This document shows positions 8,794 to 54,961 of a DNA stretch of 64,000 nucleotides, piece by piece. The DNA lies in contig NC_012491.1 of assembly GCF_000010165.1 (NCBI RefSeq), positions 6,200,001-6,264,000 of the forward strand. The letters are read 5' to 3'. This DNA is from Brevibacillus brevis NBRC 100599 (GTDB lineage Bacteria; Bacillota; Bacilli; Brevibacillales; Brevibacillaceae). The first letter of the stretch is position 1; each line of letters starts with the position of its first letter. Made by a program: the position numbers and the translations under genes. Under the pieces are notes generated by a model. That model did not search any database. It was not told where the DNA came from and saw nothing but the letters and a program-made list of their open reading frames with translations.

Positions 8794-8798
8794 TCATA

Positions 8799-32944: not shown

Positions 32945-32975
32945 TTTTTCGCCGTCACTTATACTACGGTTCCCC
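32945..32975. repeat. Distal copy of the rlmH 3' end (att-like site A)
   Basis: TTTTTCGCCGTCACTTAT followed by ACTACGGTTCCCC matches the end of rlmH (54472-54502) at 27 of 31 positions, in the same orientation, including the rlmH stop codon. No rlmH coding sequence accompanies it. It is the leftmost of five related sites and could be the outer boundary of DNA inserted at rlmH. Confidence 0.7.
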
Positions 32976-33013
32976 GCATTGACTGTAACGGCAAGCAGAA
33001 TGGGCTCCAACTT

Positions 33014-34765
33014 TCATCCCACGCTCTGGTCCGTCTGAGGAAACCGCAGGACGATTCGTGTTCCCGATCCCTCCCTGGATTCCACTTCAATTCCACCCTT
33101 ATGAGCAATACTAATCGCCTTGGCGATACTCATGCCAAGTCCCGCGCCGTCCGTTCTATCCTCCGTATGCGTGCCCCGGTAATATCGTTCGAACAAATTG
33201 CGCCTCGTCTCTTCATCCATCCCGATCCCATTATCCTCCACGATAATGAGAGCATCGTCTCCTGCAGTTTCCGTTCTCACCGTAATCACTGTTCCAGGGG
33301 GATTGTGCTTGATTGCATTCGAGATCAAGTTGTCCAACATCCGCTTAAACCATTTCACACTCGCTTTCACAACCAATTCTTCTTTCGACTCCTCAAATGC
33401 AAAAGTCACATGCTGGATCGTCACATCGTTCACATAACGCAGCACGACCCTGCGCACAAGCTCATTCAACTTACTATTTTCTAATGAAAAGCTGATGGCG
33501 TTATTTTTCAATTGGAACGTGAGGGAGAAATCCTGCAGCAATTCAAGCATGTAGTCCCCTTTTTCCCGAATCATCTTGCCCATCCCCTGAAGCTCCGCGC
33601 CGGTCCACTCGTATTGACTGCTCTCAAGCAGATGCCCATACCCATGAATCGTAGAGAGCGGGGTTCTAAGATCATGGGAGATTCCCGTCATCCATTCCTC
33701 CCGTGTACTCTCCAGGCGCCTCCGTTCCTGCTCTAAAGCATCGAGCCTTGCAGCCATTTCGTAAAATTCGGCAATTACTTCCTTATACAGTCGGTAACGC
33801 AAGCGGATTTTGCCGTTTTTGCGGAACACCTTTTTTCGTTCTTTCTCCGTTAAAGCCTCATCATAACGCCCTTGTCCCATTCGATCAAACCAATCGACAA
33901 ACAGTTGCAGTGGCTCACCATACCGATATCCATGCCAAAGCGAGAAAGCAAATGTCAGCAGCAGCATGACAACTCCCGTAACAATGAGCACTATGATGAA
34001 TTCATGAAGAATCGGCTGGTTAACAAAGACGATTCCTTTCTTGGTCGTATGTAGAATCCATGTATTTCTGGATGCCGGCTCATAATTGATGAAAATATCA
34101 TTCGGATAAATGCCGGGCTCCATTCGCATTGCGATCATTTCAAGCGGACGGTATTGTTCCTTGGGCGTAGAATTACCGATAGACTGGACTATCCGCCCGT
34201 TTTCATCCATTATCTCCAGGTATTCCTTTGATCGTTCAAGCTGCTGTTCCAGCTCTTTCACTGCAGTTGGACGGATCAACCCTTGTGTTCCTAGGGAGCG
34301 ATTCCATTCCTTCAACCGGACCGCCCCGCTGTCTTCAACTCCCAGCATATAAAAGAGAGGCGTCTGATCCGTCGTATCCAGCATCGTTATTACTCGAAAA
34401 GATTCATAGCGTCCAGTTTCCTCAATCTGCAGCAGTTCGTTCGCACTGTAAGACGATTTCAGCAGGCTAGGGGCGTTCACCGAATAAACGACTTTTCCCT
34501 TGTCGTCCACAATCTGCAGCCAGTAGCCGCCTTCCGTGAGCTGTTCTATCCACCTCTGAGGTATCGTCAGAACCCCGTCTTCTTTTGTGGTTTCCACGGA
34601 AATGTTATCCAGGGCGCTTAGGGGGAAATTTTTTTTCATATCCTGATTCGTGAAATATTGAATGAGCAGAAACAGGACGGCAGCCAAAATAACAAAAATA
34701 AATACCCCCTGCAGGAAAAACCGATACGTGAAATGAACCGCAAGCCTTCGCCGAATTCGGTTCAT
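33014..34765 (-). CDS. Two-component sensor histidine kinase
   Basis: 583 residues. A membrane helix at about 14-36 is followed by an extracytoplasmic sensor (about 37-255) and a second membrane helix (about 257-280). A HAMP-like linker and coiled coil (ALEQERRRLESTREEW) precede HisKA with GISHDLRTPLSTIHG and HATPase with NLISNAIKHNPPG, ENGIGMD-like N and G boxes and GAGLGMSIAKAI. The start ATG overlaps the stop of the response regulator gene by 4 bases, so the pair is translationally coupled. Likely target: the divergent S41-protease region. Confidence 0.92.
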   Translation of the reverse strand: MNRIRRRLAVHFTYRFFLQGVFIFVILAAVLFLLIQYFTNQDMKKNFPLSALDNISVETTKEDGVLTIPQRWIEQLTEGGYWLQIVDDKGKVVYSVNAPSLLKSSYSANELLQIEETGRYESFRVITMLDTTDQTPLFYMLGVEDSGAVRLKEWNRSLGTQGLIRPTAVKELEQQLERSKEYLEIMDENGRIVQSIGNSTPKEQYRPLEMIAMRMEPGIYPNDIFINYEPASRNTWILHTTKKGIVFVNQPILHEFIIVLIVTGVVMLLLTFAFSLWHGYRYGEPLQLFVDWFDRMGQGRYDEALTEKERKKVFRKNGKIRLRYRLYKEVIAEFYEMAARLDALEQERRRLESTREEWMTGISHDLRTPLSTIHGYGHLLESSQYEWTGAELQGMGKMIREKGDYMLELLQDFSLTFQLKNNAISFSLENSKLNELVRRVVLRYVNDVTIQHVTFAFEESKEELVVKASVKWFKRMLDNLISNAIKHNPPGTVITVRTETAGDDALIIVEDNGIGMDEETRRNLFERYYRGTHTEDRTDGAGLGMSIAKAISIAHKGGIEVESREGSGTRIVLRFPQTDQSVG

Positions 34766-35475
34766 GCGTCCTTCTCCTTGATCAGCTTATAGCCCAGCCC
34801 ACGTACCGTTACAAGATAACGGGGTGCCCCCAGGTCCGATTCGATACGCTCACGGATTTTATGGATATGAACCATAACCGTATTATCGTCCCCCATGCCA
34901 TCGATACCCCAAACCGCTTCATACAACTGCGCTTTGGAGAACACCATGTTCGGATTCTTGCATAAGTACAGCAGCAGTTGATACGCTTGTGCCGGACATG
35001 GCACCGCCTCCCCTCCCACCAACAGTTCGCCCTCGTACTCATCCAGCACAAACCCTCCGAAATCATAGCGGCGCCGGGTTTCCTCCGCATGCTGCACAGG
35101 CATAAGAACGCCGCGGCGCAGCCCGGCCTTGGTTCTTGCTACAATTTCAAGCGGATTGAATGGTTTGGTCACATAATCGTCTCCACCGATGGCAAACCCG
35201 GACAGCACATCCAGATCCGACGCTCTTGCCGTTAAATAAATGATATACGCAGATGAGATCTCCCGTATTTGGGGGCATAGGTCAAACCCCGACTGATCAG
35301 GGAGCATAACATCCAATATGATGATATCTACTTCATTTTTGGCTAGCAGCCGTAGCGCTTCCTGGGCCGTGCCCGCTGTGTAAATATGACGGAAGCCTTC
35401 TTTTTTCAGCACCGTTTCAAGCAATTGGATAATCGATTTTTCATCGTCAACAATCAAGATTTTCGAGTTATACAT
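34762..35475 (-). CDS. OmpR-family response regulator
   Basis: About 237 residues. Receiver: ILIVDDEKSIIQLLETVLKKEG, acceptor Asp near residue 54 in IIILDVMLPDQSG, Lys in [10 protein letters not shown]. Output: OmpR/PhoB winged helix with VFSKAQLYEAVWG and DDNTVMVHIHKIRERIE. The ATG at 35475 has AAAGGGGGG 6 bases upstream. An earlier frame start at 35508 lacks this. Divergent from the gene fragment and S41 protease at 35618-37212, which are probable targets. Confidence 0.93.
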   Translation of the reverse strand: MYNSKILIVDDEKSIIQLLETVLKKEGFRHIYTAGTAQEALRLLAKNEVDIIILDVMLPDQSGFDLCPQIREISSAYIIYLTARASDLDVLSGFAIGGDDYVTKPFNPLEIVARTKAGLRRGVLMPVQHAEETRRRYDFGGFVLDEYEGELLVGGEAVPCPAQAYQLLLYLCKNPNMVFSKAQLYEAVWGIDGMGDDNTVMVHIHKIRERIESDLGAPRYLVTVRGLGYKLIKEKDA

Positions 35476-35617
35476 CCAATCCCCCCTTTTGCTATCGTAA
35501 CAAATCAACTTTAATTCCAGCTAAACATTTCCAATTCCGTTAAGTAAACATTAAGGCAGACTTTAAGTGGATTTCAATCGTCGGTGCTACAATCGCTTTT
35601 GAGGTGATCGAATTTGG

Positions 35618-35821
35618 TTGGGCAACAACAACATTTGCACGACAATCTTTTATGGCTACGGGCTTGGAAGGTTCGGCAAGCTTGGCGTATTGGCCGGCTG
35701 CGGACTGACGCTTGTCATTTACACCGCGCAACTCTTCGCTAGCCACTGGTACTTTCGTGACCGAAGCACAGGCCACTTTGCTTTACTTGGGCTTAAAGAA
35801 GATCAGAAAAATGGGAGGTAG
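35618..35821 (+). pseudogene. C-terminal fragment of a DUF418 (YeiB-like) membrane protein
   Basis: 67 codons reading ICTTIFYGYGLGRFGKLGVLAGCG and TAQLFASHWYFR, which is the last part of DUF418 proteins (final two membrane helices). Full-length members have about 350-400 residues, so the N-terminal four-fifths are gone. A TTG at 35618 could still start it, and a GAGGTG lies 14 bases before. Its stop is two bases before the S41 gene, so it may serve as a leader frame for that gene. Confidence 0.65.
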
Positions 35822-35826
35822 TTATG

Positions 35827-37212
35827 ATGAAAAGCAGAGTCTGGATCGCGTTACTTATCTTTCTGTTTGCTAGCGTATCGGGAGCGGGTGCATACACTTC
35901 ATCCAATGTGAACCAGGGGAAAGAGGCAAAGCCTGCCGTTGATGGTGCCAAGCGACAGCTTTGGCAGTCGAGAGGGTACGGGTGCATAATGGAGATAAAC
36001 GGGAAGTCGGTTACTATGTACAACTACACGCGTGACAGCCTGCTGCTGTTTGCGATCGGTGATCTGGATGAGCAAGGGAACCTCAATCTGAAATTCCAGC
36101 TCGGCGACTCCAAACAGTTACCGGAAAGTGCGCGGGAGCGAATTTGGATGGGACGCTTTCAAAACGGCAGCCTGACCGACAAAATGGGTTATGTGAAACA
36201 GTTTAAGCAAATCAAGCAATTTCCCGCAGTGAAGGTAAAAGAGCTCAGCAAGGACCCGGTCGCCAATTTCGAGGTGTTCTGGCAAACCTTCGAAGAGAAT
36301 TTCAGTTTCTTCCCGCTCGTAAAAGTAGATTGGAAAGAGGTATACAAGACTTACAGACCAAAGGTAACCGCGGCCACTTCCGAGAAGGAGCTGGAGAACA
36401 TCTTCAAGGAAATGCTCGGAAAGCTGAAAGACGGGCATACCAATATGATTACCAACGAAAACTTTTTCTCTGCCATGCCTAAGATGGAGCGGGCAGAATT
36501 TTATGAAATCAATCTGAAAGCCATCCAGGGTACCATCGAATCAAACTATATGAACGGAGCGTTAAAGAGCAAGCTCGAGGGACGCATCCAGTACGGCCGG
36601 ACGAAAAACGGTGACGCTTATATCCAACTGCGCGAATTTGACGTGTCTGACGAGAAGCTGATTGACGAAGCCCTTGCCGACATGGTGCAAGACCTGGCAG
36701 ACTGCCGGAACTTTGTGATCGATATGCGCTTCAACAGGGGTGGCGATGATATCTTCGGGTTGAAAGTCGCCGGACTGTTCACGGGCGAAAAAAGGCTGGC
36801 GTATAACAAACAGGGCAGAATTGGCGGATACGATCAATTTTCCGAGCCGACAAAAATTTTTATCGAGCCGGGAGCCAAGCGTTTTACAGCCAACAAGATC
36901 ATCGTCCTATCCGGGCCGTTGACGGTAAGCGCGGGAGAGACGGGCACGATGGCCTTGAAAAAACTGGACAAGGTGACGGTCATCGGCGAAAAGACAAGTG
37001 GATTCTTTTCCGACGTGCTGTTCAAAACGCTACCGAACAATTGGGTAATCATGCTCAGCAATGAACGTTATACTTCTCCCGAAGGCATCAATTACGAGCA
37101 GCTCGGTCTGCCACCGGACGAACAGATTATACTGAAACAAGCCGATGTGGATGCCCACAAAGATTCGGTAATCATCCGGGCTATGGAGCTATTGAAAGTG
37201 GCGAGTAAATAA
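35827..37212 (+). CDS. Secreted or membrane-anchored S41-family (C-terminal processing) peptidase
   Basis: About 461 residues. An N-terminal signal sequence (MKSRVWIALLIFLFASVSGAGA) is followed by a lipocalin-like or tricorn-core-like lead. The S41 domain has KLKDGHTNM, FVIDMRFNRGGDD and the catalytic Ser in LTVSAGETGTMALKKLDKVTVIGEKTSG, with the downstream Lys of the Ser-Lys pair. No PDZ domain is evident. GGGAGG lies 8 bases before the ATG at 35827. The ATG at 35824 is the other option. It follows the DUF418 remnant directly and is divergent from a two-component system. Terminated at 37219-37280. Confidence 0.87.
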   Translation: MKSRVWIALLIFLFASVSGAGAYTSSNVNQGKEAKPAVDGAKRQLWQSRGYGCIMEINGKSVTMYNYTRDSLLLFAIGDLDEQGNLNLKFQLGDSKQLPESARERIWMGRFQNGSLTDKMGYVKQFKQIKQFPAVKVKELSKDPVANFEVFWQTFEENFSFFPLVKVDWKEVYKTYRPKVTAATSEKELENIFKEMLGKLKDGHTNMITNENFFSAMPKMERAEFYEINLKAIQGTIESNYMNGALKSKLEGRIQYGRTKNGDAYIQLREFDVSDEKLIDEALADMVQDLADCRNFVIDMRFNRGGDDIFGLKVAGLFTGEKRLAYNKQGRIGGYDQFSEPTKIFIEPGAKRFTANKIIVLSGPLTVSAGETGTMALKKLDKVTVIGEKTSGFFSDVLFKTLPNNWVIMLSNERYTSPEGINYEQLGLPPDEQIILKQADVDAHKDSVIIRAMELLKVASK

Positions 37213-37218
37213 GGATTC

Positions 37219-37280
37219 AACAAGGAAAGAGCATCCCTGCTCCTGGGAATCGAGGTGCGGGGTGCTCTTTCCTTGTTATT
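37219..37280 (+). terminator. Long terminator hairpin after the S41 gene
   Basis: AACAAGGAAAGAGCATCCC pairs with GGGGTGCTCTTTCCTTGTT and is followed by ATTTT. Confidence 0.85.
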
Positions 37281-37419
37281 TTGGTCTGTTGCAGGAGGGG
37301 TATCAGCGAAAAATCCGTCACACACTTGGCTACCGCATGAAAACACAGTCAATTTTGACAAATAAAGTGAGTGAATGGTAGATTCTTCTTATATTAAATT
37401 CTTTCATTTGGGTGGGCTT

Positions 37420-37986
37420 ATGAGAAAAAAATTACAAATATACATATCGTCTACTTATTACGATCTTATTGAAGAAAGACATACCGCTGTTGAAGCCGTA
37501 CTTCAAGCCGGTCATATCCCTGCTGGAATCGAGCAATTTTTCAAGGAAAGTCCAATGAAAATGAGGAAGAGATGGATCGACGAGTCCGATGTATATATCC
37601 TGATTCTCGGAGGATTCTATGGTTTAACACTTCCTGATGAATCCATGAGCTATACGCATTGGGAATATGAGTATGCCGGAGAAGCAGGCAAACCTAGATT
37701 TGCTTTTGTTGTCACAGATGAAGCATTGAGACAACAGCCATACGACTTCACAGCAATTGAATACTATCAGAAGTTTCAAGAGTTTAAGCAATCGGTCATG
37801 GAACAAGTTCCCACCTATTATGTTGAAGATGTACGGCACATTAAAATGGTACTTCGTGATCAATTGCCGGAGTATGCAGCAAGAGACGATTTGTATGGCT
37901 GGTTTTCCGGCAAGGATGTCCCGGACGTTCAAAAGCTGTTGGAAGAGAATGCAAGATTAAAGGCGGAGTTGGAGAAAAAGAAATGA
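37420..37986 (+). CDS. DUF4062 (TIR-like) protein
   Basis: About 188 residues. The N-terminal DUF4062 domain reads LQIYISSTYYDLIEERHTAVEAVLQAGHIPAGIEQF, then RWIDESDVYILILGGFYG and YTHWEYEYAGEAGKP. This family has a TIR/nucleoside-deoxyribosyltransferase-like fold and usually forms the N-terminal sensor or effector of large defence or NLR-like proteins. Here it stands alone with only a short coiled-coil tail (LLEENARLKAELEKKK). The ATG at 37420 follows TTGGGTGGG. A GTG-type start at 37375 has no site. Confidence 0.8.
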   Translation: MRKKLQIYISSTYYDLIEERHTAVEAVLQAGHIPAGIEQFFKESPMKMRKRWIDESDVYILILGGFYGLTLPDESMSYTHWEYEYAGEAGKPRFAFVVTDEALRQQPYDFTAIEYYQKFQEFKQSVMEQVPTYYVEDVRHIKMVLRDQLPEYAARDDLYGWFSGKDVPDVQKLLEENARLKAELEKKK

Positions 37987-38016
37987 AAGAGGGGCTGGCA
38001 CAACCAGTCCCTTTCT
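37986..38016 (+). terminator. Terminator after the DUF4062 gene
   Basis: AAAGAGGGGCTGG pairs with CCAGTCCCTTT around CACAA and is followed by CTTCC; the T run is poor. Confidence 0.6.
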
Positions 38017-38135
38017 TCCGTCTTCCATTAATATTCTCCTTGAATGACAATATTGCGGGTTTTTGGGGTAGTGGATATAATTACCGATCAACCTGCTAAC
38101 GAGACGATACGGTACACCATGAATAGGGACTTAGA

Positions 38136-38921
38136 TTAGATTTCAAGCAATTCCGCTATCGTTTCACCGAGCACTCTTCTCTCGACCTCTTTGCTCGGTG
38201 CACAACGTTGAACTGCGATTTTTGCCAAGTAAGGATCGCCGTATGGATGGTCCGAACTAAACAACGTTCTGTCAGGAAGCTCTTTCATCGCAAGGCTCAA
38301 GGCAAAAACCGTATATACCGCTGAGGTATCCAAAAAAGCATTGTCTATGTCCTTCGTTAAGTTGATTGTATCCAACCAGTTCAAGCCACCCAAATGTCCG
38401 AAAATGACTGGCACATTCGGATTCTTTTGAACAAGATAGGCAAGGTCCCGAATATCTACCATTTTTAATGGTTCGAACGTATGAACCCAAATCGGGAGGC
38501 CATGCCACTCGTTCGCAGCCTTGAATACGGGGTCGAGCAATCCGATCTGGCCTGACCCCAACGTAAATTCACCAAACCCTCTCAACCCGTTGTTGACGAT
38601 TTTGGTTTCCACCCATTCCATCGTTTCCGTCTCGGAAAAACCGAGCGGTACGCTTCCGAAACCGATAAAGCGATCGGGATATTGCCGCACCGTCCGAATC
38701 AATTCGTCCATTGCCTTTATACGTGCCTCTGAGCTATTTATCCGATTGGCCAATATGTTTGACAATTTTCCCATCTCTTCAACAAACTCAGAATACGACT
38801 CGCTTTTTTCCGGATGAACAAGCGTCGAGAACAAAACTGTTTTATCGATGTTCGATTCGTCCATGATATTCAAGTGAGATTCTACTGACGAATGAACGTG
38901 TGAGTGGCTGTCAATAATCAT
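38136..38921 (-). CDS. Amidohydrolase (metal-dependent hydrolase, Amidohydro_2 type)
   Basis: 261 residues of the TIM-barrel amidohydrolase superfamily. Metal ligands are visible as DSHSHVH (HxH, residues 4-8), IWVHTF, IFGHLGG and FSSDHPYGDP (Asp). Members decarboxylate or hydrolyse aromatic and related acids. It overlaps the carboxymuconolactone decarboxylase-like gene by 4 bases and is the last gene of an MFS - CMD - amidohydrolase operon. A role in breaking down an imported aromatic or lactone compound is likely but inferred. Confidence 0.87.
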   Translation of the reverse strand: MIIDSHSHVHSSVESHLNIMDESNIDKTVLFSTLVHPEKSESYSEFVEEMGKLSNILANRINSSEARIKAMDELIRTVRQYPDRFIGFGSVPLGFSETETMEWVETKIVNNGLRGFGEFTLGSGQIGLLDPVFKAANEWHGLPIWVHTFEPLKMVDIRDLAYLVQKNPNVPVIFGHLGGLNWLDTINLTKDIDNAFLDTSAVYTVFALSLAMKELPDRTLFSSDHPYGDPYLAKIAVQRCAPSKEVERRVLGETIAELLEI

Positions 38922-39328
38922 TCGGAGCCCCCCTTATTTGATTTTGTTTTTCGTTCTGCAAACACTTCTGCAGCAACGGTCAGAATCGAATTTAAAGCAA
39001 CAGGAAAACCAGCGTAAATTAACATTTGCATCATGCACTCCACAATCTCTTCTTCCGTCCATCCAAGGTTTAATGCTCCGTTAATATAAAACCTCAACTG
39101 CTGCGTATTTCCCATCGCCGTCAGACCTGCCACTGTAGCGAGAAGCCTAGATTTCAAATCGAGACCTGGACGGGAAAATATTTGGCCGTAATTGAATTCT
39201 ACAGCGAGCTGTCCCAAATCTGGGGCCACTGTGTCTTTAAAACTATCAACAATGCTCTGGTAATGCTCGCTATCTATTTTTTTCAGGATTTCCATTCCTT
39301 TATTATAGGTATCATCATGAATTTGCAT
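38918..39328 (-). CDS. Carboxymuconolactone decarboxylase family protein
   Basis: 136 residues, all-helical, with the family pattern DLKSRLLATVAGLTAMGNTQQLRFYINGALNLGWTEEEIVECMMQMLIYAGFPVALNS. The CxxC pair of AhpD-like peroxidases is absent, so it belongs to the lactone-decarboxylase-like side of the family. It overlaps both neighbours (14 bases with the MFS gene, 4 with the amidohydrolase), so the three are coupled. Confidence 0.88.
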   Translation of the reverse strand: MQIHDDTYNKGMEILKKIDSEHYQSIVDSFKDTVAPDLGQLAVEFNYGQIFSRPGLDLKSRLLATVAGLTAMGNTQQLRFYINGALNLGWTEEEIVECMMQMLIYAGFPVALNSILTVAAEVFAERKTKSNKGGSE

Positions 39329-40541
39329 TTGTATTTTTCATCCTTTCAATTTTCGTATGGTTTACATTTTTTATGCCCGCCGATGTACTCATTCCGACAA
39401 AGACCATGATCAATCCAACCACGCAAACACCGGACCACTGCCAGTTGCTCCATGCCCACACTCCCACATAGGACCCAAGTGCACCCCCTATAAAGGTGAA
39501 AACCATATACAACCCGTTCAATCTGCTTCTAGCAGCAGCAGAAAGTTCGAATATTTTCGCCTGACAGGCAACCTGATTTGCTTGTGTGGAAACCGTTAGC
39601 AACAATGCGCTGCCAATCAATCCCGGCAGCCAATTAGCGGCAACCGCGGAGATCAGGAACGAAGCCATAGCTGCAAGCATGCAAATTTTATTGGCGAGTG
39701 CTGCCCCTTTCCTGTCAATGATCAGTCCAATCAATGGAGTTGCGACAGCGCCTCCGATTCCGACCAACCCAACCAATCCAACAACGGCACTGCCGTATTC
39801 GTACGGGGGTGATTGAAGCAAGAATCCTATAGTAGTAAAAAAGACACTAAACGATCCAAACACCATACCTTGACTCAAACAGGCGCTCTGGAGTGCTTTT
39901 TGCTTCACGAACAGAGGCCCCAACGAAAGCAACAACTGGCGGTATGGTAATGCTGTCTCACCTTGGCTTTGGGGAAGCCGAAACCGAATTAGGAGAGTAA
40001 GCAACAACATGAAGCCAAAGGAAATCCAATACATCACTCTCCAGCCCCATATGCTATCAACAATGCCGCTAACTATCCTCGCCCCCAATATTCCGCAGAC
40101 AAGACCGATCGCCACTGTCCCTAGTAACTTCCCCCGATTGCGATCATTTGCCATACTGGCAGCTAATGGAACGATAAGCTGCGGTATAATCGTCGTTATG
40201 CCTATCGCAAAATGACTCACGATTAACCACGTTAAAGAACTAGATAATGCGGCCGATAAGAGCGACAATGAAACCGCCAACAACAAGAAGACAATCATTC
40301 GACGTCTTTCAAACATGTCTCCCAAAGGCACTAGCAGGAGATTCCCGATTGCATAGCCTACCTGGGTAAGAGTCGTCACACCTCCTATCTCTGCTACGGT
40401 TGAGTCGAATGTTTTCGCCATATCGACTAGTAAGGTCTGGTTTAAATAAACGTTTGCCACGGTAAACCCGCAGGTTATCACCATAAGAGCGATCAGACCT
40501 TTCGATGGACCAGATCTGATTAAGTCCTCCAGAACGATCAC
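39315..40541 (-). CDS. MFS transporter
   Basis: 408 residues with 12 predicted membrane helices. It has the MFS loop motif GDMFERRRMIVF between helices 2 and 3 and its weaker repeat IDRKGAALANK between 8 and 9. DHA1-type or aromatic-acid-type substrate specificity cannot be read from sequence. The frame opens with a GTG at 40541 that overlaps a strong AAGGAGG, so the true start may be the CTG at 40532. First gene of the operon and divergent from the XRE regulator. Confidence 0.88.
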   Translation of the reverse strand: MIVLEDLIRSGPSKGLIALMVITCGFTVANVYLNQTLLVDMAKTFDSTVAEIGGVTTLTQVGYAIGNLLLVPLGDMFERRRMIVFLLLAVSLSLLSAALSSSLTWLIVSHFAIGITTIIPQLIVPLAASMANDRNRGKLLGTVAIGLVCGILGARIVSGIVDSIWGWRVMYWISFGFMLLLTLLIRFRLPQSQGETALPYRQLLLSLGPLFVKQKALQSACLSQGMVFGSFSVFFTTIGFLLQSPPYEYGSAVVGLVGLVGIGGAVATPLIGLIIDRKGAALANKICMLAAMASFLISAVAANWLPGLIGSALLLTVSTQANQVACQAKIFELSAAARSRLNGLYMVFTFIGGALGSYVGVWAWSNWQWSGVCVVGLIMVFVGMSTSAGIKNVNHTKIERMKNTNANS

Positions 40542-40563
40542 CTCCTTGTCTTTATTCGTAAAC

Positions 40564-40577: not shown

Positions 40578-40656
40578 ATTAAAGTGCGAACAAACCTACA
40601 AATAGAAGCCTATTAATCATAGTATTAAAAGTAACAGGATTAGGCGGAGGGATTAG

Positions 40657-46267: not shown

Positions 46268-46311
46268 ATTACTTGTGGTATGGTCAGCTTAACGGTGCCA
46301 GCTCATCTGCG
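46268..46311. repeat. att-like repeat E
   Basis: ATTACTTGTGGTATGG then TCAGCTTAACGGTGCC matches repeat C (53104-53136) at 27 of 33 positions with one gap. It covers the stop codon of the gene at 46284-46781. Its right part, four bases displaced, resembles the GCGA tail of repeats C and D. Confidence 0.55.
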
Positions 46312-48551: not shown

Positions 48552-48946
48552 TGTCTCCCGCCTTTTTGCTGATCCATCTTAGCTCAATATAATCATACTA
48601 TGAAAATGGGAAAGCTTGTTGGAATTGTATACGTCTGCCTGAAATCGACCAAAGCAAGCCTTAGCCCGTTCCTTTATACGAATATGCGAAGAAACTTAAG
48701 AGCGCAATGCCACTCATATGACCGTGGAATCAATTTGCTTGGGTGAGGCTTATGCACAAACGGAAGATAAGTGGGGCTATATAATAAGAAGAATCGGGAT
48801 TGAAAAAAACACATTATCATCCCCGCAGAGCAAAAGGGAGAACGCCATAGAGGCCGTTCTCCCTTTTACGATTTTCCAAGCCTTGTATTCGCTCAGAAAA
48901 AGCTGTGTTAGACTTTGCAATAAAGCAGCTTTCGGAAAGAATGAAT
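48552..48946. other. Intergenic region of about 400 bases with one terminator
   Basis: Holds a strong hairpin at 48832-48867 and the upstream region of the leftward 557-residue gene. A rightward open frame at 48718-48999 passes through the hairpin and into the end of the DUF2785 gene and is not supported. Confidence 0.5.
48832..48867. terminator. Terminator after the DUF2785 gene
   Basis: AAAAGGGAGAACG pairs with CGTTCTCCCTTTT around a 10-base loop. It is symmetric, so it works in both directions; the leftward DUF2785 gene ends 80 bases before it. Confidence 0.82.
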
Positions 48947-49774
48947 TCAATGTCTTCCAGTCGCAAACTTGTTCAATTTCGTCTCTGCAGCAAGTATGAC
49001 AGCGGCAAGAACATTTCCGCGGCTTCCCTGTCCTCTTCTGAAATAGAGACTACGCAGAAAATTTTTACTATTCACACGGGCGATCGTCTGAACGTAGTTT
49101 CTCTGCCAGTCGACGCATTTTGTCAAACCGCTTATCCAGTCAGCAATCTCCTGCTGTGGAAGCAAACCCTCTTCAATCATGGTATCCACGATACTGGCGA
49201 TCCGCTCATCATCCTCATCGCTAAAAATTTGTTTCCCATTATGGAGCATCCCCTCAATAGCAGCAAGTACTTCAAGCTGTACCGCTGTATCGCTCTCCGG
49301 ACACTTGACCAGCTCCAGCAAAGCATCCGCACCGTGTGACGCACCATGAGCCCAGCCTCCTTCAGGCAGATAGCCGCGCAGATCCTTTTCCTCCTTATAA
49401 TAGCGGAGCAGTGAATGCTTGAGATTTTGGAATTCAGCATAATCCAGAAAAGGCTTCTTGCTGTGAAGCCGTACTATTAAAGCAACTGGTAGAACAGAGA
49501 ACGTCCTTGTAAATACAGACTGGTCACCTTCGCTACCAATATGATAGAACAAATGATGCTCATCGGTCAGAATGGCCAGAAGATTGCTCAATTCCGTTTC
49601 CGTAAACCGATTGTCTTCATAAATCCATGTATACAGTGTCGGATAGATCAGTCCATCCCGTAATTCCGGTTGAGGATCCCCGATAAATTGCAGCATGAGA
49701 GTTAAAAAATCCTGAGTCCGCTCACCTTCACGAAGCTGGTAATGTTCCTTCTCAATTCTTTGCAGGTCTATCAT
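48947..49774 (-). CDS. DUF2785 family protein
   Basis: About 275 residues, all-helical. The family pattern is clear: LTLMLQFIGDPQPELRDGLIYPTLYTWI, LHSKKPFLDYAEFQNLKHSLLRYYKEEKDLRGYLPEGGWAHGASHGADALLELVKCPESD. The function is unknown. The ATG at 49774 has AAGGACG 6 bases upstream. An upstream frame to 49885 overlaps the next gene and is not needed. A damaged relative lies at 52813-53100. Small-gene run of the rlmH-proximal accessory region. Confidence 0.8.
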   Translation of the reverse strand: MIDLQRIEKEHYQLREGERTQDFLTLMLQFIGDPQPELRDGLIYPTLYTWIYEDNRFTETELSNLLAILTDEHHLFYHIGSEGDQSVFTRTFSVLPVALIVRLHSKKPFLDYAEFQNLKHSLLRYYKEEKDLRGYLPEGGWAHGASHGADALLELVKCPESDTAVQLEVLAAIEGMLHNGKQIFSDEDDERIASIVDTMIEEGLLPQQEIADWISGLTKCVDWQRNYVQTIARVNSKNFLRSLYFRRGQGSRGNVLAAVILAAETKLNKFATGRH

Positions 49775-49877
49775 GAGTTTCGTCCTTGTATTGCTCACTA
49801 TCTCATCCCCTTGAATAAACGCTATTTCCGGACTACTTACACCCCTACTATAAAACAAAATGACTGACACCTGTATG

Positions 49878-50798
49878 TCAGTCATTGTATGGTAGTAATA
49901 TTGTTTTTATATATTCTTGTAATTCATTTCTCAAATAACAGGGCTCCACTATCTCGCATTCCTTACCAAAGCTTAAAATAAATTTCAGTAATCCCTCCTC
50001 ATATGGAAATTGATCCACAACGATATATTGATTGTTAGGTGTTTTAGTTATTTTCTCTTTTTGAAAATACTCCGTTAATTGCTCTCCCATTTTATGAGTA
50101 AACTTTAAGGTAACAGTTATGCCTCGCGTAAGATAGCTATTCCTAATGACTTCCTCGATTTCTTTATTTGAGATATCCTTTTTTTCGAAGTCCTCACCCA
50201 TTTTCAAATTCTTGATCCGTACTAGTTTGAACCTTCTGTAGCCATTTCTTTCTTTGCAAAAGCCCACTAAATACCATTGACCGGCGGAAAATGTAATTTG
50301 AAACGGTTCTACTGTTCTTTCTAGATACTCCATACTTCTGTTGATATATTCGAATACCACTAGCTTATTTTTTTCAATAGCATTGTTTAATAGAAGCAGG
50401 TATTCCTTTAATTCATTTTCCATACTGAAATGAGACAGATTAATGTCTAACTTGCTTGTATTCTTTTCTTGTTTAAGCGTATTCTCGATCTTTAAAACAA
50501 TATCATGAAACGTTGTATTTTTCCCAAATAGAAAACTTAGATTATTCATTATCGCCATGAAAGTAGAGGCTTCATCTTTGTTTAAAAAAAGATTGTCCAC
50601 ATTATAGTCTTCCATAATGTAATAGCCCCCACCTTTACCACCAATGGATGCGATTGGGATACCTGCTTCACCTAACTTTTCTATATCTCTGTAAATTGTT
50701 CGTATGGACACCTCAAAATGTTCCGCAAGCTCTTTGCCTGTAACCGTACCTTTTTTTGAGATAATCAGTAACATGGATAGTAATCGATCTACGCGCAT
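49878..50798 (-). CDS. WYL-domain transcriptional regulator (YafY type)
   Basis: 306 residues. The N-terminal winged helix is of DeoR type (LLSMLLIISKKGTVTGKELAEHFEVSIRTIYRDIEKLGEAGIPIASIGGKGGGYYI). The WYL domain (about 140-220) has VVFEYINRSMEYLERTVEPFQITFSAGQWYLVGFC and ends in a WCX-type extension. WYL domains sense nucleic-acid or nucleotide ligands and often sit in defence or accessory islands. The start is ATG at 50798. AT-rich compared with its neighbours. Its target is not obvious; the DUF2785 gene downstream is a candidate. Confidence 0.9.
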   Translation of the reverse strand: MRVDRLLSMLLIISKKGTVTGKELAEHFEVSIRTIYRDIEKLGEAGIPIASIGGKGGGYYIMEDYNVDNLFLNKDEASTFMAIMNNLSFLFGKNTTFHDIVLKIENTLKQEKNTSKLDINLSHFSMENELKEYLLLLNNAIEKNKLVVFEYINRSMEYLERTVEPFQITFSAGQWYLVGFCKERNGYRRFKLVRIKNLKMGEDFEKKDISNKEIEEVIRNSYLTRGITVTLKFTHKMGEQLTEYFQKEKITKTPNNQYIVVDQFPYEEGLLKFILSFGKECEIVEPCYLRNELQEYIKTILLPYND

Positions 50799-50994
50799 TT
50801 ATATATTACGTTGATTTGCAACGTATCCTCTCTTATTCTTTTTTACAATGGTGTTAAATGGCCAATTCATATTATGTATTCAAATGACCGAACGGAGTCT
50901 TCCTTGCCCACCTCCGGTCATTTTGTTCTTTTCTCAAGTAAATACTACTTTCTTATCTGATTCAACTGTACTTCTAGCTCGATCCACTACTTTA

Positions 50995-51037
50995 CCACTA
51001 TTTGTGATAAGGTTCAGCTTAACGGGTCTATCAGCGA
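50995..51037. repeat. att-like repeat D
   Basis: Matches repeat C (53102-53144) at 34 of 43 positions; shared core GATAAGG then TTCAGCTTAACGG. Read on the minus strand it starts ACCTTATCACAAATA-like after the core, similar to rlmH-end sequences. It also falls in a minus-strand open stretch (FADRPVKLNLITNSGKVVDR) that may be a gene remnant. Confidence 0.55.
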
Positions 51038-51106
51038 ATTTATTAGGAAAACCTGACAGACTCCAACCCTCTGAGCAAGCATCGTCGGAGAAACACCCTT
51101 TTCATA

Positions 51107-51134
51107 TTTACAAATCTATAAAAATAGATATAAT
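51107..51134 (+). promoter_or_regulatory. Promoter and operator of the arsR-like gene, giving a probably leaderless mRNA
   Basis: TTTACA (51107-51112) and TATAAT (51129-51134) are 16 bases apart. The spacer contains the perfect palindrome ATCTAT-AAAA-ATAGAT (51114-51129), a typical ArsR site. The start codon at 51142 is only 7 bases after the -10 box, so transcription should start at or next to it. Confidence 0.65.
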
Positions 51135-51141
51135 GATCTAT

Positions 51142-51453
51142 ATGGAACCTTCATTGATTTATAAAGCTTTGTCTAACGAGACTCGTAGTCAAATTATGCA
51201 ATGGTTAAAGAATCCAGAGGAATTCTTTGATGAAAAGCTCTATTTACAACAAGGCCTCAATTTTCGGATTGGTGTATGCGTGGGAGATATTCAGGCAAAA
51301 TCGGGACTTGCACAATCTGTTATCTCGAGTTATTTGTTGACTATGCAAAAAGCTGGTTTGCTAGAATCCGAGCGAATTGGGAAGTGGACGTACTATCGTC
51401 GGAACGAAAAGATAATACAGGAATTTTCCGAGTACATCAAAACGAAACTATAA
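51142..51453 (+). CDS. ArsR-family winged-helix regulator
   Basis: 103 residues: MEPSLIYKALSNETRSQIMQWLKNPEEFF, then a recognition region QAKSGLAQSVISSYLLTMQKAGLLESERIGKWTYYRRNE. No metal-binding Cys cluster is present (one Cys, GVCVGDIQ), as in the ArsR group controlling MFS drug efflux genes. A longer rightward frame begins at 50848, but the promoter at 51107-51134 lies inside it, which excludes that start. The gene is followed after 78 bases by an MFS transporter, with a related operator in between. Confidence 0.88.
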   Translation: MEPSLIYKALSNETRSQIMQWLKNPEEFFDEKLYLQQGLNFRIGVCVGDIQAKSGLAQSVISSYLLTMQKAGLLESERIGKWTYYRRNEKIIQEFSEYIKTKL

Positions 51454-51484
51454 ACGGAAAGGAGCTCTTTTTTTGTTTATTTAT

Positions 51485-51513
51485 ATCTATAATTCTATAT
51501 ATATGAATATAAT
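51485..51513 (+). promoter_or_regulatory. Candidate second ArsR operator and promoter of the MFS gene
   Basis: ATCTATAA (51485-51492) repeats the left half of the upstream palindrome and is followed by TTCTATAT. TATAAT at 51508-51513 may be a -10 box, but no good -35 box is visible. Confidence 0.35.
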
Positions 51514-51531
51514 CGGAGGCTTACATTTAAC

Positions 51532-52707
51532 ATGAAACAGGTTAACCCTTTGCTTATTATGATTCTGGCTTTAGGCGTATTCGGCATTATTACAACGGAA
51601 ATGGGAATTATAGGTGTTTTACCCCAGGTCACTCAAAAATTCAATATTTCGACCGCGCAGGCCGGATGGCTTGTAAGCATATTTGCGTTAGTTGTTGCCA
51701 TTTCAGGTCCATTCCTGACATTACTCGTTTCTGGTATTAATCGTAAAGTCATTTTATTAACCGCTGTGCTTATTTTTGCGATTTCAAATATTGTTTATGC
51801 CTTCACAACCCGGTTCGATGTGATGCTAGTTTTCCGTATTCTCCCTGCTATTTTTCATCCCGTCTTTTTCTCGATTGCCCTTGTGACCGCAGCCAAACTT
51901 GTCCCTCCGGAAAAAAGCAGCAAAGCGGTCACAAAGGTTTTCGCCGGAATAACGGTCGGATTTGCTTTTGGCGTGCCTTTGACTTCTTATCTCGCGGACA
52001 AGATATCGTTAGAAGCTGCTTTCCTATTTGGAGCTGTTGTAAGCATGATTGCCTTTGTAGGAATACTAGCTTGGCTTCCTTCCATGCCTGTTACGGAAAA
52101 AATGTCTTACGACCAGCAGCTTGGTATATTACGCAAACCTCAATTGTGGTTAACGATCGCGACCGTTATTTTTATCTTTGCAGCTATGTTTTCTGTGTAC
52201 AGCTACTTTGCTGAATATTTAGGACAAGTAACACATATGAACGGGTCATGGATTAGTATCATGTTGATGGCCTTTGGAATCATCATGATTTTCGGAAATT
52301 TTTTATTTGGGGGCTTTTTGCATAAAAGCATTACAAAGACCGTTATCTTGTATCCTCTGCTCTATGCGGTCATTTACTTATTCACTTATTATTTAGGTTC
52401 TTCTTTCTTTCCAATGGCTGTTATCGTATTCCTTTGGGGGACAGTGCATTCCGGAGGGCTTATTGTCAGTCAAGCATGGTTAACAATTGAGGCAAAAGAA
52501 GCTCCTGAATTCGGCAACAGCTTGTTTGTCTCATTTTCCAATCTTGGAATTACTGTAGGGACTTTTATCGGCGGTTGGTTTATTTCTCACTGGGGCATAC
52601 ATCAACTCATGTGGAGCGGCATTACGTTTTCACTTCTAGCTTTCTTATTGATCATGGTAAAAATAAAAATTTCCAAATCGAACGCAGAGGAAGTAAACGT
52701 TCGTTAA
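51532..52707 (+). CDS. MFS transporter (DHA1/AraJ-like efflux)
   Basis: 391 residues with 12 predicted membrane helices. MILALGVFGIITTEMGIIGVLPQV in helix 1 and RILPAIFHPVFFSIALVTAAKLVPPEKSSKAV are typical of the sugar/drug efflux group (AraJ, YdhP, YbcL). It ends in IKISKSNAEE. CGGAGG lies 12 bases before the ATG. With the ArsR-type gene it forms a self-regulated efflux pair. The substrate is unknown. Confidence 0.88.
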   Translation: MKQVNPLLIMILALGVFGIITTEMGIIGVLPQVTQKFNISTAQAGWLVSIFALVVAISGPFLTLLVSGINRKVILLTAVLIFAISNIVYAFTTRFDVMLVFRILPAIFHPVFFSIALVTAAKLVPPEKSSKAVTKVFAGITVGFAFGVPLTSYLADKISLEAAFLFGAVVSMIAFVGILAWLPSMPVTEKMSYDQQLGILRKPQLWLTIATVIFIFAAMFSVYSYFAEYLGQVTHMNGSWISIMLMAFGIIMIFGNFLFGGFLHKSITKTVILYPLLYAVIYLFTYYLGSSFFPMAVIVFLWGTVHSGGLIVSQAWLTIEAKEAPEFGNSLFVSFSNLGITVGTFIGGWFISHWGIHQLMWSGITFSLLAFLLIMVKIKISKSNAEEVNVR

Positions 52708-52812
52708 ACGAGCGGAATCGATCAATATAACGTGGCAGTCTAGAACATTGTTTCCGTGTTCAGGACTGCCAAACGGCAAACAAGGTACTCCAAGATCATT
52801 CCCTCGGCTAGT

Positions 52813-53100
52813 TGCCGCACTGTGCCAAGCCGTTTATCCAGTCAGCGATCTTCTACTGCGGAAGCAGACCTTTGTCAATCATGGTATCCACGATGCTAGC
52901 GATCCACTCATCTTCCTCCGCTAAAAATTTGTATCCCGATATGAAGCATCCCTTGAATAGCGCCAAGAACCTTGAGTTGCACCGCTGCACCACTCTCCGG
53001 GCAATGCTTCAGGTGCTGGAAATCAGCTTGATCCAGAAAATGCTGCTTCCTGTGATATTGCATAATCAAAGCATGTATGTTTGTTCGTACTAAAACTGTT
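52813..53100 (-). pseudogene. Degraded copy of the DUF2785 gene
   Basis: Read leftward it gives HRKQHFLDQADFQHLKH joined directly to CPESGAAVQLKVLGAIQGMLHIG, matching the intact gene at 48947-49774. However, it lacks about 36 residues (RYYKEE to LLELVK) and then shifts frame after IFSGG into DEWIASIVDTMIDKGLLPQ, stop, KIADWINGLAQC. So there is an internal deletion, a frameshift and a stop. The N-terminal half is missing, and the copy is cut off at repeat C. Confidence 0.85.
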
Positions 53101-53144
53101 GCCATCACTTATGATAAGGCTCAGCTTAACGGAGCCATCGGCGA
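53101..53144. repeat. att-like repeat C, closest copy of the rlmH end
   Basis: GCCATCACTTATGATAAGGCTC (53101-53122) matches the end of rlmH (54478-54499) at 21 of 22 positions in the same orientation. The next bases (AGCTTAACGGAGCCATCGGCGA) are shared with repeats D and E instead of rlmH, and GGCTC/GAGCC can form a small hairpin. Confidence 0.75.
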
Positions 53145-53227
53145 GAAATGCGAAAAGAGCTGCCGCGGCGCATAGTCTCTCCTACATTTTCCGCTTGGCC
53201 CAAGAGCTATGATTATGCCTTTATAAA

Positions 53228-53341
53228 CATGCAAAGAAGGCCACCAAAGTATTCGGCGGTCTGATTGTCGGTGATTCAACTATCGTACCCGTTAGCAAAA
53301 ACACGAATGCAGCCTGGCACCTACTCCACAATCGATTTTAG
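53228..53341 (+). pseudogene. Possible remnant of a GerW/YtfJ-like spore protein
   Basis: A 37-codon open stretch reads KKATKVFGGLIVGDSTIVPVSKNT. The segment GDSTIVPVSK is typical of GerW (YtfJ) family spore germination proteins, but no start or remainder of the family is present. It overlaps the end of the leftward gene at 53321. Weak, based on a short motif. Confidence 0.3.
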
Positions 53342-53536
53342 AGCTTCTGCGGCAATTATCTTAGCTGCCTCGTTGTCTTGCGGTGAGCTTTCCACAATAG
53401 TTTGGAGCGCTTTCTTTGCGATCTCCAGCTGTGTGGTTAAACGGTCAGCCATTTTGGCGATATAGACGGTAAAGTCGTCTGTTGACTCGCCATTGCCTAT
53501 TAAGACGACCGCAATAAATTCAAATCTATTCTTCAC
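53321..53536 (-). CDS. Small helical protein of unknown function
   Basis: 71 residues from GTG at 53536, with a strong GGGAGGTG 7 bases upstream: FEFIAVVLIGNGESTDDFTVYIAKMADRLTTQLEIAKKALQTIVESS. The first 15 residues are hydrophobic, the rest amphipathic helix. No family recognised. Its start lies inside the 3' end of the damaged small gene at 53526-53763, so the two were once coupled. Confidence 0.5.
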   Translation of the reverse strand: MKNRFEFIAVVLIGNGESTDDFTVYIAKMADRLTTQLEIAKKALQTIVESSPQDNEAAKIIAAEALKSIVE

Positions 53537-53763
53537 TTTTGTTCACCTCCCTCAGCTTGATTTCATTGCGGTGAGGTACCCTACCCCAATTATTTATTAT
53601 CTCTTCACGTGTAACACTGGGCTTGTTCAAATCATATTTAGCATTGAAATGACGTTTGCAAGCCCAACAACATGGCACCCCCAGTCAAATCCCCTCTTAT
53701 CCAACCAGTCCATCCAATGTTAATCTGGGTTTTTGTTGGCATAGTTTTTGAAGTGTCAATCAT
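53526..53763 (-). pseudogene. Small CxxC protein gene with a one-base frameshift in a G run
   Basis: The first frame starts at ATG 53763, overlapping the stop of the DUF4375 gene (ATGA), and reads MIDTSKTMPTKTQINIGWTG. A run of five G (C on the plus strand, 53678-53682) follows. Removing one G joins it to a second frame reading GVPCCWACKRHFNAKYDLNK and on to KLREVNKSEE, stop at 53526. The joined protein would have about 78 residues with a CCxxC-type cluster, which could bind zinc. Either a mutation, a sequencing error, or slippage at the G run. Confidence 0.45.
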
Positions 53764-54188
53764 TTGCTTGCCTCGTATCTTTCTTTCTCCGCTTCGACAT
53801 AAGCCTCCAATAGCGGCCATATATCAAAATCGATATAAAGGTATAGACTGCCAGCCAGTTCGTCTATTTTCTCACTGTCAAGGTCACTTTGATAGATTTG
53901 GTATATTTGAGCCAGGGTTTCAGCTTCTTTATCCGCTGAAATATGGCGCAACGCGTCGATCATTTTGTCAGCATAGCGCCCGGTGCTGTTTTCCAACAGA
54001 CCGCCAATCCCATTCATCGCCAACTCGGTGTCCATGTCGATGATCCAAATAATATCCTGTATGAATTGTGGATAGGCGGACAGCGCGTCACGGTCAACCG
54101 GTTCATCGTAAATCCGGGACATAGACTGTATCACATCGTTCGCACTCATGACACTAATATTGCTCAAAACTTCGTCAATAAAGCTCAT
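53760..54188 (-). CDS. DMP19 / DUF4375 family protein
   Basis: 142 residues. The family pattern is DALSAYPQFIQDIIWIIDMDTELAMNGIGGLLENSTGRYADKMIDALRHISADKEAETLAQIYQIY, helical and acidic. The name-giving Neisseria DMP19 is a DNA-mimic protein. Bacillus-group members are uncharacterised and are often found in immunity-type gene clusters. GGAGCACCAC precedes the ATG. Its stop overlaps the next small gene by 4 bases. Confidence 0.78.
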   Translation of the reverse strand: MSFIDEVLSNISVMSANDVIQSMSRIYDEPVDRDALSAYPQFIQDIIWIIDMDTELAMNGIGGLLENSTGRYADKMIDALRHISADKEAETLAQIYQIYQSDLDSEKIDELAGSLYLYIDFDIWPLLEAYVEAEKERYEASK

Positions 54189-54216
54189 GTGGTGCTCCTT
54201 TTGTTATGCCACGCTC

Positions 54217-54357
54217 TCAATCCAGCTGGCGCAACGCTTTTTCGATTGATTCCCTAACATCATTATTTTTCAACTGGGGATAAATTGCTTGAAGCTCAGA
54301 ACGGAAGGATTCCGTCTGTACATCCGATAACCCTTGTGGATGATATGCAATGCCCAT
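54217..54357 (-). CDS. Short hypothetical protein or C-terminal remnant
   Basis: 46 codons from ATG 54357 (MGIAYHPQGLSDVQTESFRS) to TGA at 54217. The frame remains open for nine more codons upstream (KRLDRFLNE) before a stop. The sequence ELQAIYPQLKNNDVRESIEKALRQLD is protein-like. No ribosome site before the ATG, so it is probably the tail of a lost gene. Located directly between rlmH and the DUF4375 gene. Confidence 0.4.
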   Translation of the reverse strand: MGIAYHPQGLSDVQTESFRSELQAIYPQLKNNDVRESIEKALRQLD

Positions 54358-54471
54358 CTCATTAAGAAATCTATCAAGTCGCTTCTAATTTTTTGTAGAG
54401 TTGTATCTTTGGTCTTTTTTTCGTTATTTTTCACACGACTTCTTGATTGCGAACTTCACTAACAACCAACA

Positions 54472-54502
54472 TTTTTCGCCGTCACTTATGATAAGGCTCC
54501 CC
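54472..54502. repeat. att-like site B at the rlmH stop codon
   Basis: Covers the last codons and stop of rlmH (PYHK, TGA) and 10 bases beyond. Repeated with 27/31 identity at 32945-32975 and over its first 22 bases at 53101-53122. This is the position where staphylococcal SCC cassettes integrate. Confidence 0.7.
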
Positions 54503-54961
54503 CCGACTAATCCGAAACGCTCGATAAACCTGCTCCAACAACACCAACCGCACCAACTGATGCGGAAACGTCATCTTCGAAAACGACAACAACGCATCTG
54601 CCCGCTTCAACACCTGATCAGCCAACCCCAACGATCCGCCAATCACAAATGCCACCTGACTGCGCCCATGCAAAGCCAGTTTGTCCATCTCCGCAGACAG
54701 CTTCTCCGATGACCACATTTGCCCATCAATCGCCAGCGCGATCACATACTGATCCTGCTTGATCTGCGCCAGGATACGCTCGCCTTCCTTGCGCTTCACC
54801 TGCTCCATCTCCGCCGCACTCATCTCTTCTGGCGCCTTTTCATCATTGACCTCGATCACTTGAAGCTTGCAATAAGCAGACAGACGCTTGCTATATTCAT
54901 CAATGCCCTCACGCAAATATTTCTCCTTCAGCTTCCCTACTGTAATAATCGAAATTTGCAT
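54482..54961 (-). CDS. rlmH: 23S rRNA (pseudouridine1915-N3)-methyltransferase
   Basis: 159 residues, full length. SPOUT-fold enzyme that methylates pseudouridine 1915 of helix 69 on assembled ribosomes. Visible are [26 protein letters not shown], the SAM-knot region [14 protein letters not shown], and the conserved C-terminus [36 protein letters not shown] precedes the ATG. In Bacillales it sits next to the wal operon, as here. Its 3' end is the likely attachment site for the accessory DNA to the left. Confidence 0.97.

Follow-up and report, generated by a model that had tools for sequence, protein, structure and literature searches.

The 64,000-nucleotide stretch analysed here (referred to throughout as the window) comes from the chromosome of Brevibacillus brevis NBRC 100599 (contig NC_012491.1, positions 6,200,001 to 6,264,000). 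It contains the gene rlmH and, beyond the 3' end of this gene, a series of blocks separated by repeats of the rlmH end. A preliminary description had read these repeats as the boundaries of stacked or decayed cassettes resembling the staphylococcal cassette chromosome (SCC). The features of the region are listed below by increasing distance from rlmH, with the repeats given as attachment (att) sites, site scores in bits from a weight matrix scan and cassette genes assigned using Pfam.

54482..54961, minus strand: rlmH, an open reading frame (ORF); at att site 1 the C-terminus of RlmH reads GEPYHK-stop, and these last codons are the insertion site
54482..54499, minus strand: att site 1 (rlmH end), exact GRRCCKTAYCAYAARTRR, 36.1 bits
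53123..54481: cassette 1, about 1.4 kb, with a DMP19-like gene (53760-54188, minus strand; PF14300)
53105..53122, minus strand: att site 2, exact pattern, 46.0 bits
51016..53104: cassette 2, about 2.1 kb, with a major facilitator superfamily (MFS) transporter gene (51532-52707, plus strand; PF07690)
50998..51015, minus strand: att site 3, exact pattern, 47.2 bits
46287..50997: cassette 3, 4.7 kb, with a WYL regulator, DUF2785, DUF6138 and Imm68
46269..46286, minus strand: att site 4, diverged, 2 mismatches to the pattern, 26.6 bits
32973..46268: cassette 4, 13.3 kb, with DUF4303, acetolactate decarboxylase, chemoreceptor, MFS, two-component pair, S41 peptidase, DUF4062 and other genes
32955..32972, minus strand: att site 5, diverged, 2 mismatches to the pattern, 29.7 bits
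30094..31743: segment homologous to a 1.8-kb att-bounded cassette of two other genomes, G017 and G018, with an HxlR regulator and a zinc alcohol dehydrogenase (domains read in G018)
10834..10851, minus strand: possible sixth and oldest att site, 2 mismatches, 18.1 bits (simulated windows reached at most 16.3)

The motif GRRCCKTAYCAYAARTRR covers the final rlmH codons together with the sequence surrounding the stop codon, and recurs four times in the window in the orientation of rlmH. The copies that lack rlmH coding sequence were recounted, which reproduced the identities of 21/22 for 53101-53122, 27/31 for 32945-32975 and, relative to the 53.1-kb copy, 34/43 for 50995-51037. For the relative at 46268 the count was 28/33 with a one-base gap, against the 27/33 stated earlier, and 20/44 ungapped. 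The block sizes of 13.3, 4.7, 2.1 and 1.4 kb were as described. The 17-mer CRCTTATGATAAGGCTC at the rlmH stop codon has a mismatch-free second copy at 53106-53122 and, with up to three mismatches, gave three window matches where 0.26 were expected. At the same tolerance GATAAGGCTCAGCTTAACGG occurs just twice in the 6.3-Mb genome, both times within the rlmH array. The conserved motif is about 40 bp long and extends past the rlmH codons in both directions, and the repeat CAGCTTAACGG, common to three window sites, sits rlmH-ward of the core, inside the adjacent cassette, the position expected of an element end.

The window was scanned with a weight matrix of 46 columns trained on 44 inner sites from other genomes, and 200 first-order Markov windows, scanned on both strands, served as the null. 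The five sites named in the preliminary description scored highest in the window, each of them on the rlmH strand, and the top score on the opposite strand was 9.5 bits; the test is not wholly independent, because the training sites were chosen via the pattern and a matrix that the window genome's own sites had partly shaped. A chance origin of the repeats was ruled out by the mismatch-tolerant counts and by the matrix scores relative to the simulated windows. No coding relic of rlmH was seen at the inner sites either, as RlmH coding sequence precedes the rlmH-end sites only. An Rfam scan of the window between 30 and 56 kb gave no match at the gathering threshold.

The accessory region had been described as bounded at 32945. 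The array extends past this position, because the segment at 30.09-31.74 kb corresponds to an att-bounded cassette in G017 and G018, and because of the weak site at 10834-10851, which is 43.6 kb from rlmH and scores barely above the simulated maximum. The boundary of the segment rests on homology, since no clear att sites remain at 30094..31743 and the residual site at 30097-30080 scores 2.3 bits.

The rlmH region was then compared across 26 genomes of the genus group, including the window genome (G000). Each contains one RlmH at 82-100% identity, and the sequence immediately past the stop codon is different in nearly all 26. The stretches compared were up to 19.9 kb downstream from rlmH in the 25 other genomes, three being shorter because their contigs ended after 6.7, 9.2 and 19.5 kb, and 32 kb of the window, giving 505 kb in total. 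The matrix at 12 bits or more gave 72 forward and 2 reverse matches in this sequence, training sites included. The exact pattern gave 67 matches in the 26 whole genomes, comprising 22 rlmH ends, 24 sites within 50 kb downstream of rlmH and 21 elsewhere, while a reversed control pattern matched once. All 24 downstream sites are on the rlmH strand. A hand-curated site list contained at least one further rlmH-oriented site in the fetched stretches of 20 of the 26 genomes, and further sites in G005 and G016, at 30.4 and 20.3 kb, bring the genomes with sites near rlmH to 22 of 26. The interval list derived from these sites omits G005 18824 (11.2 bits) and the reverse site of G015, and retains the weak sites G002 18788, G006 11152, G008 614 and 3574, G010 549 and 19411, G011 17113, G014 1549, G021 10043, G023 11642 and G024 13021.

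Comparison of the rlmH-downstream stretches by all-against-all blastn revealed cassettes that are common to several genomes but reordered, with the clearest homology starting and stopping at att sites. Block content and order differ between genomes and many blocks end at sites; identical content in all relatives had been named as grounds for rejecting the cassette interpretation. The 1.8-kb HxlR/alcohol-dehydrogenase cassette lies at 776-2584 in G018 and 4130-5960 in G017 with different neighbours on both sides, and the limits of the match (G017 4129-5975, G018 775-2599) fall 1 bp before att and 15 bp within it. G002, G011 and G023 all have, at 96-97% identity, a 3.3-kb cassette that encodes an AraC regulator and a binding protein. 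About 6 kb shared by G000 and G023 starts 44 bp past the last listed G023 site (16.5 bits) and 1.2 kb beyond window site 5. Among the window cassettes, cassette 3 is 91% identical (blastn) to positions 564-5251 of G022, which start at rlmH and hold an additional att at 2676, hence two consecutive cassettes there; the match stops 13 bp (window) and 59 bp (G022) before the next att. Parts of cassette 3 were also found in G002, G006, G011 and G012. The rlmH-near 1.6 kb of cassette 4 forms a separate interval in G023 (9839-11642) and an interval start in G002, and cassette 1 had no match over 50% of its length in the stretches from the 25 other genomes.

Three genomes contain the empty sites that the preliminary description had anticipated, with rlmH joined to DNA that lies behind further blocks elsewhere. 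In G022 the rlmH end joins directly to the cassette located past site 3 (left of 51015) in the window, so that cassettes 1 and 2 are absent there at rlmH. This junction also occurs in G018, where cassette 3 is reduced to a 205-bp remnant between two good sites, with about 50 bp of the cassette end left. The rlmH end of G019 is joined directly to DNA that lies past a site 7.6 kb away in G020 and past the third site, 14.2 kb away, in G024. The switch of homology falls within the att core.

The 48 closed intervals of the 26 genomes have a median length of 3.0 kb, and 36 of them measure 5 kb or less. No ccr gene is present in 46 of the 48, the exceptions being in G001 and G013 (the site list includes weak sites), and the ORFs of these 46 intervals run with rlmH in 108 cases and against it in 41. 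Intervals were scored as shared with another genome when at least 50% of their length was matched, and one interval below 300 bp (G018) was dropped. The rlmH-adjacent interval was shared in 4 of 19 cases, the second in 8 of 14 and the third and later in 10 of 14, a contrast that is inflated because long arrays occur in the most closely related genomes. That later intervals are shared more often than the first is consistent with addition at rlmH and outward ageing.

The preliminary description reported no ccr-type large serine recombinase (LSR) in the window, and tblastn with 24 recombinases and one helicase likewise returned neither a ccr gene nor a ccr-neighbour helicase in the window. The search it proposed close to rlmH in related genomes gave full-length LSR genes in 4 of the 26, namely G001, G005 (a pair), G013 and G016, with their near ends 0.1-12.4 kb from rlmH. 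Fragments were found in two more: a 302-aa ccr-type fragment about 9 kb from rlmH in G008, and a 51-aa ccr C-terminal remnant adjoining rlmH in G011 (L047 608-760), at the end of a ccr-less Lamassu cassette. All five full-length proteins carry resolvase, recombinase and zinc-ribbon domains (Pfam), and their best NCBIfam family is CcrB (NF047343) with 306-433 bits, followed by CcrC. Six other LSRs of the window genome score at most 230 bits with CcrB. Among the matches listed from 5000 plasmid-collection records, the top ones are staphylococcal, at 40.5% identity over 90%, and labelled recombinase family protein; the one from S. epidermidis is CcrB by NCBIfam, with 1137 bits. The sole ccr partner identified was a P4/D5-type primase-helicase beside the G013 gene, several other scanned neighbours having no family. 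Two further ccr-type reading frames were observed. A second fragment of 315 aa, without the N-terminal part, ends at the last site of the G001 array. In G016 (L042:137-2398) a ccr-like ORF of 753 aa continues through att into rlmH antisense, so that its C-terminus would change on insertion or excision.

A wider scan covered one genome per species and the best 80 of 470 loci, with flanks below 10 kb for some. rlmH was within the flank of 16 of these best 80 loci; all 16 were among the 20 best E-values, and none of the other 60 loci was linked. Among the matches listed, the 16 loci span Paenibacillus, Cohnella, Tumebacillus, Thalassobacillus, Aneurinibacillus, Alkalihalobacterium, Terrilactibacillus, Ureibacillus, Rossellomorea, Virgibacillus, Planococcus, Amphibacillus, Domibacillus and Bacillus. 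Linkage to rlmH was also seen on a replicon of Paenibacillus cellulosilyticus (L071). Virgibacillus alimentarius (L087, 7396-12130) has tandem rlmH copies with a ccr-like gene between them and the usual att end on the far copy only.

An LSR tree of 49 rows, including 17 of the 60 unlinked loci, placed 19 LSRs, the four tested from the window genome among them, in one clade with support of 99/95. All 22 rlmH-linked LSRs and Staphylococcus CcrB fall outside this clade. CcrA, on a very long branch, and the unlinked L076, L077, L079, L083, L091 and L094 fall outside it as well, so the rlmH-linked LSRs are not one clean clade; the inner branches near CcrB are not settled, and the linked proteins were counted as belonging with CcrB, apart from other LSRs. 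Candidates for a Ccr gene elsewhere in the window genome were rejected for all LSRs tested, L001-L006 by CcrB score and L001, L003, L004 and L005 by the tree, from which L002 and L006 were left out; the short LSR L007 was in neither the scoring nor the tree. One LSR locus of the window genome has its nearest tree neighbour in B. borstelensis, at about 67% DNA identity.

The recombinase of G013 was also searched family-wide, and 6 of 39 genomes from seven genus groups gave matches at E 1e-75 or better. G034, from another genus group, carries it at 99% protein identity in an element 28 kb from rlmH, between sites at 28734 and 40332, whereas the counterpart in G013 is directly at rlmH. G034 28731-36359 matches G013 717-8801 at 93% (4.9 kb) and 82% (2.8 kb), starting at att, while the rlmH genes are 78% identical. 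In a second pair, G038 and G001, about 7 kb are 95-98% identical and a further 376-bp piece is 70% identical, against 81% for rlmH.

The window region is very probably an array of SCC-type cassettes that were inserted site-specifically, and the att sites, reordered blocks and empty sites support the proposal of stacked or decayed SCC-like cassettes at rlmH. By homology to SCC, a CcrB-like LSR would join the att carried by a circular DNA packet with the one that the final rlmH codons make up. The incoming packet would bring an identical end sequence, so that the C-terminus of RlmH would be kept and the site would be reusable, and each new packet would land adjoining rlmH and displace older packets outward. 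As the window cassettes carry no recombinase and no Ccr-clade LSR was found among those tested, their insertion was most likely the work of a recombinase that acted in trans or has since been lost.

Several observations weigh against this interpretation. The window has no recombinase gene and its genome has no Ccr-clade LSR among those tested. None of the five full-length proteins reaches the NCBIfam CcrB equivalog cut-off of 900 bits, and the weakest score, 306, is not far above the 230 of an ordinary LSR. Sites 4 and 5 have diverged and are possibly no longer functional. Many homologous stretches stop within intervals, away from sites, as indels and decay would give. The polarity counts pool genomes of unequal relatedness, and the 3 kb past the last listed site is shared in 12 of 26 genomes, with no further rise (six of the 26 have no inner site in the list). 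Circular forms and excision are not visible in assemblies. A genome-wide element unrelated to rlmH, named beforehand as grounds for rejection, was ruled out for the long form, which is limited to the array, though 21 of the 67 exact matches of the short core in the 26 genomes lie outside rlmH arrays (the surroundings of 14 were inspected); rlmH is therefore the main, not the sole, location.

Some blocks have clearly decayed, and it is possible, though on balance doubtful, that decay accounts for everything, the ccr-less blocks being immobile fossils of complete SCC-like elements from which ccr was deleted. The diverged window sites 4 and 5, the ccr remnants of G011 and G008, the 205-bp block flanked by two good sites in G018 and the 30.1-31.8 kb window boundaries without clear att are all in keeping with this, but intact ccr-less cassettes with both ends at att occur between differing neighbours (G017/G018; G002/G011), and blocks have been gained or lost exactly at rlmH among G019, G020 and G024. 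Homologous recombination between common cassettes or flanks, with the att sites passive, is an unlikely source of the block movement as a whole. It may well contribute, as the runs of adjoining cassettes common to close relatives offer a substrate; however, the homology switches at the att core between unrelated flanks, rlmH on the left and a cassette on the right, and the G013/G034 match starts at att, between genus groups with rlmH at 78-81% identity. A transposon or insertion sequence (IS) with a preferred target that carries the repeat as its end is highly improbable, for although some blocks contain transposase genes (Mutator family in G023, IS110 family in G001), the 24 exact downstream sites have a single orientation, the sites include the end codons of rlmH, the long repeat is absent elsewhere in the window genome and no transposase was found in the 20 window ORFs scanned.

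The assignment to site-specifically inserted cassettes can be compared with known systems. SCC elements are defined by insertion at the rlmH 3' end, direct repeats with a TATCATAA-type core, one or more ccr genes and a host that is Staphylococcus or close kin. In the window insertion is at the rlmH 3' end and the flanking direct repeats have the TATCATAA-type core, two of the five sites being diverged. The window cassettes have no ccr gene and their host, with a genome of 6.3 Mb, is not a close relative of Staphylococcus; its RlmH is 60% identical to that of two Staphylococcus-labelled records. Cassettes 1-4, att-bounded at rlmH and without ccr, correspond to pseudo-SCC, so the SCC-like insertion of the preliminary description is retained and the blocks are best called pseudo-SCC-like, not SCC, because they lack a recombinase. 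Staphylococcal composite and pseudo-SCC regions resemble the window in having stacks separated by direct repeats and ccr-less members. The arrays described here differ from staphylococcal SCC in belonging to another branch of the Bacillota, in their small intervals (median as above), in the distantly CcrB-like recombinases and in the frequency of further sites near rlmH within the group.

In outline the rlmH arrays also resemble integron arrays, in which many small exchangeable cassettes enter at a fixed site, newest first, with the recombinase outside the cassettes. They differ from integrons in the serine recombinase, the att within a gene end and cassettes that hold one to several genes of either orientation, and no tyrosine integrase, as expected of an integron, was found in the 20 window ORFs scanned.

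Staphylococcal SCC and SCCmec share with the window the insertion at the rlmH end and the TATCATAA-type core, as given in passages of PMC6222049. In the S. stepanovicii region outlined in part of PMC4723332, 15-bp repeats act as dividers and there are no ccr homologues. The Enterococcus cassette chromosome (ECC), in the relevant sections of PMC6222049, inserts at rlmH with att repeats of about 50 bp containing TATCATAA, carries ccrAB and variable cargo, and has been shown to transfer. The arrays here share the rlmH insertion, TATCATAA repeats and variable cargo, whereas a complete ECC is defined there by ccrAB, attL and attR and most att-bounded intervals here lack ccr. SCC-like tandem islands of Bacillota with Pol-SSB pairs, published in 2023, lie downstream of rlmH and carry LSRs and restriction-modification cargo according to passages of PMC10061031, in which a tandem composite of Paenibacillus pinistramenti shares its contig with L072 of this analysis. 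That work examined 17 examples for polymerase-SSB pairs; "Brevibacillus" is absent from its main text, and its Results passages do not describe genus-wide arrays, polarity or ccr-less stacks. Sections of PMC6222049 and PMC10061031 thus already report SCC-like rlmH islands outside Staphylococcus, tandem composites included. As far as the open-licence literature was searched, the genus-wide arrays, the 46 of 48 ccr-less intervals, the newest-near-rlmH polarity, the exchange between genus groups and the several defence cargos are new.

For seven genomes, a subset of the ORFs in the first-position cassettes was examined for cargo with PADLOC. Two of them, G002 and G011, have Lamassu, G024 has Wadjet type II and G012 has type III restriction-modification. 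G017 gave a strong match to NsnA, G007 a partial one to mad3 and G020 only a weak match. The ccr element of G013 carries a cytosine methylase and an AIPR protein, and G006 has a single-gene Mrr cassette. Eight window ORFs passed through PADLOC gave the WYL regulator and a weak kinase match alone; the scanned window ORFs encode regulators, transporters, immunity-like and metabolic genes and no clear defence system. No mec genes turned up in the 20 window ORFs scanned, a scan that was not aimed at mec. With Lamassu, Wadjet and type III restriction-modification in first-position cassettes, the rlmH end is a place to look for defence systems.

A broader interpretation is advanced tentatively, as somewhat less than an even prospect. 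The rlmH end may be a general, integron-like capture site for small, mostly recombinase-less cassettes, inserted newest first by Ccr supplied in trans from occasional complete elements, loaded with defence genes near rlmH and exchanged between genera, with SCCmec one late member. SCCmec is usually told as a staphylococcal matter; here that entry point and a recombinase branch related to Ccr recur in another genus group and, judged by linkage to rlmH, in 14 or more other genera of Bacillota. The arrays offer a natural setting for questions about SCC, such as the movement of ccr-less segments, the formation of stacks and the origin of SCC and its recombinases.

Further observations concern rlmH-like genes and sites in other arrangements. 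Second, diverged RlmH genes or fragments, at 39-58% identity by piece, were found at L036-L039 (G019, G022, G023 and G012) and in G002, G018 and G020. The second genes (45-50% identity) were rejected as alternative targets, as the 3' ends of L036, L037 and L038 lack the TAYCAYAAG core. An rlmH 3'-end fragment with an att site lies at about 3262-3336 of L163 (G004:C60), on a contig other than that of rlmH. A strong att site of 44.7 bits at 5424 in G015 (L059) is inverted, 4.9 kb from rlmH, and the G001:C1 array (L161, L162) extends to 43 kb from rlmH with additional sites at 619869, 628395 and 634988. Flanks of 14 and 20 kb on either side of L156 (G023:C1:4434000-4446000) gave no additional sites; L156 itself has four att-like sites in one orientation (45.7, 36.9, 28.6 and 16.9 bits) and 161 aa left of a G001-like ccr gene; the locus is 1.7 Mb away from rlmH and is perhaps a second array in G023. 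Away from rlmH in G000, L152 (G000:C1:3574000-3580500) carries at 3276-4561 an APH-family phosphotransferase gene between two oppositely oriented att sites, and a 1.46-kb stretch of this locus is 98% identical in G002 with different flanks (L152, L153). G022 and G006 (L154, L155) have in common a 1.2-kb stretch with an aldo/keto reductase gene adjoining one att site.

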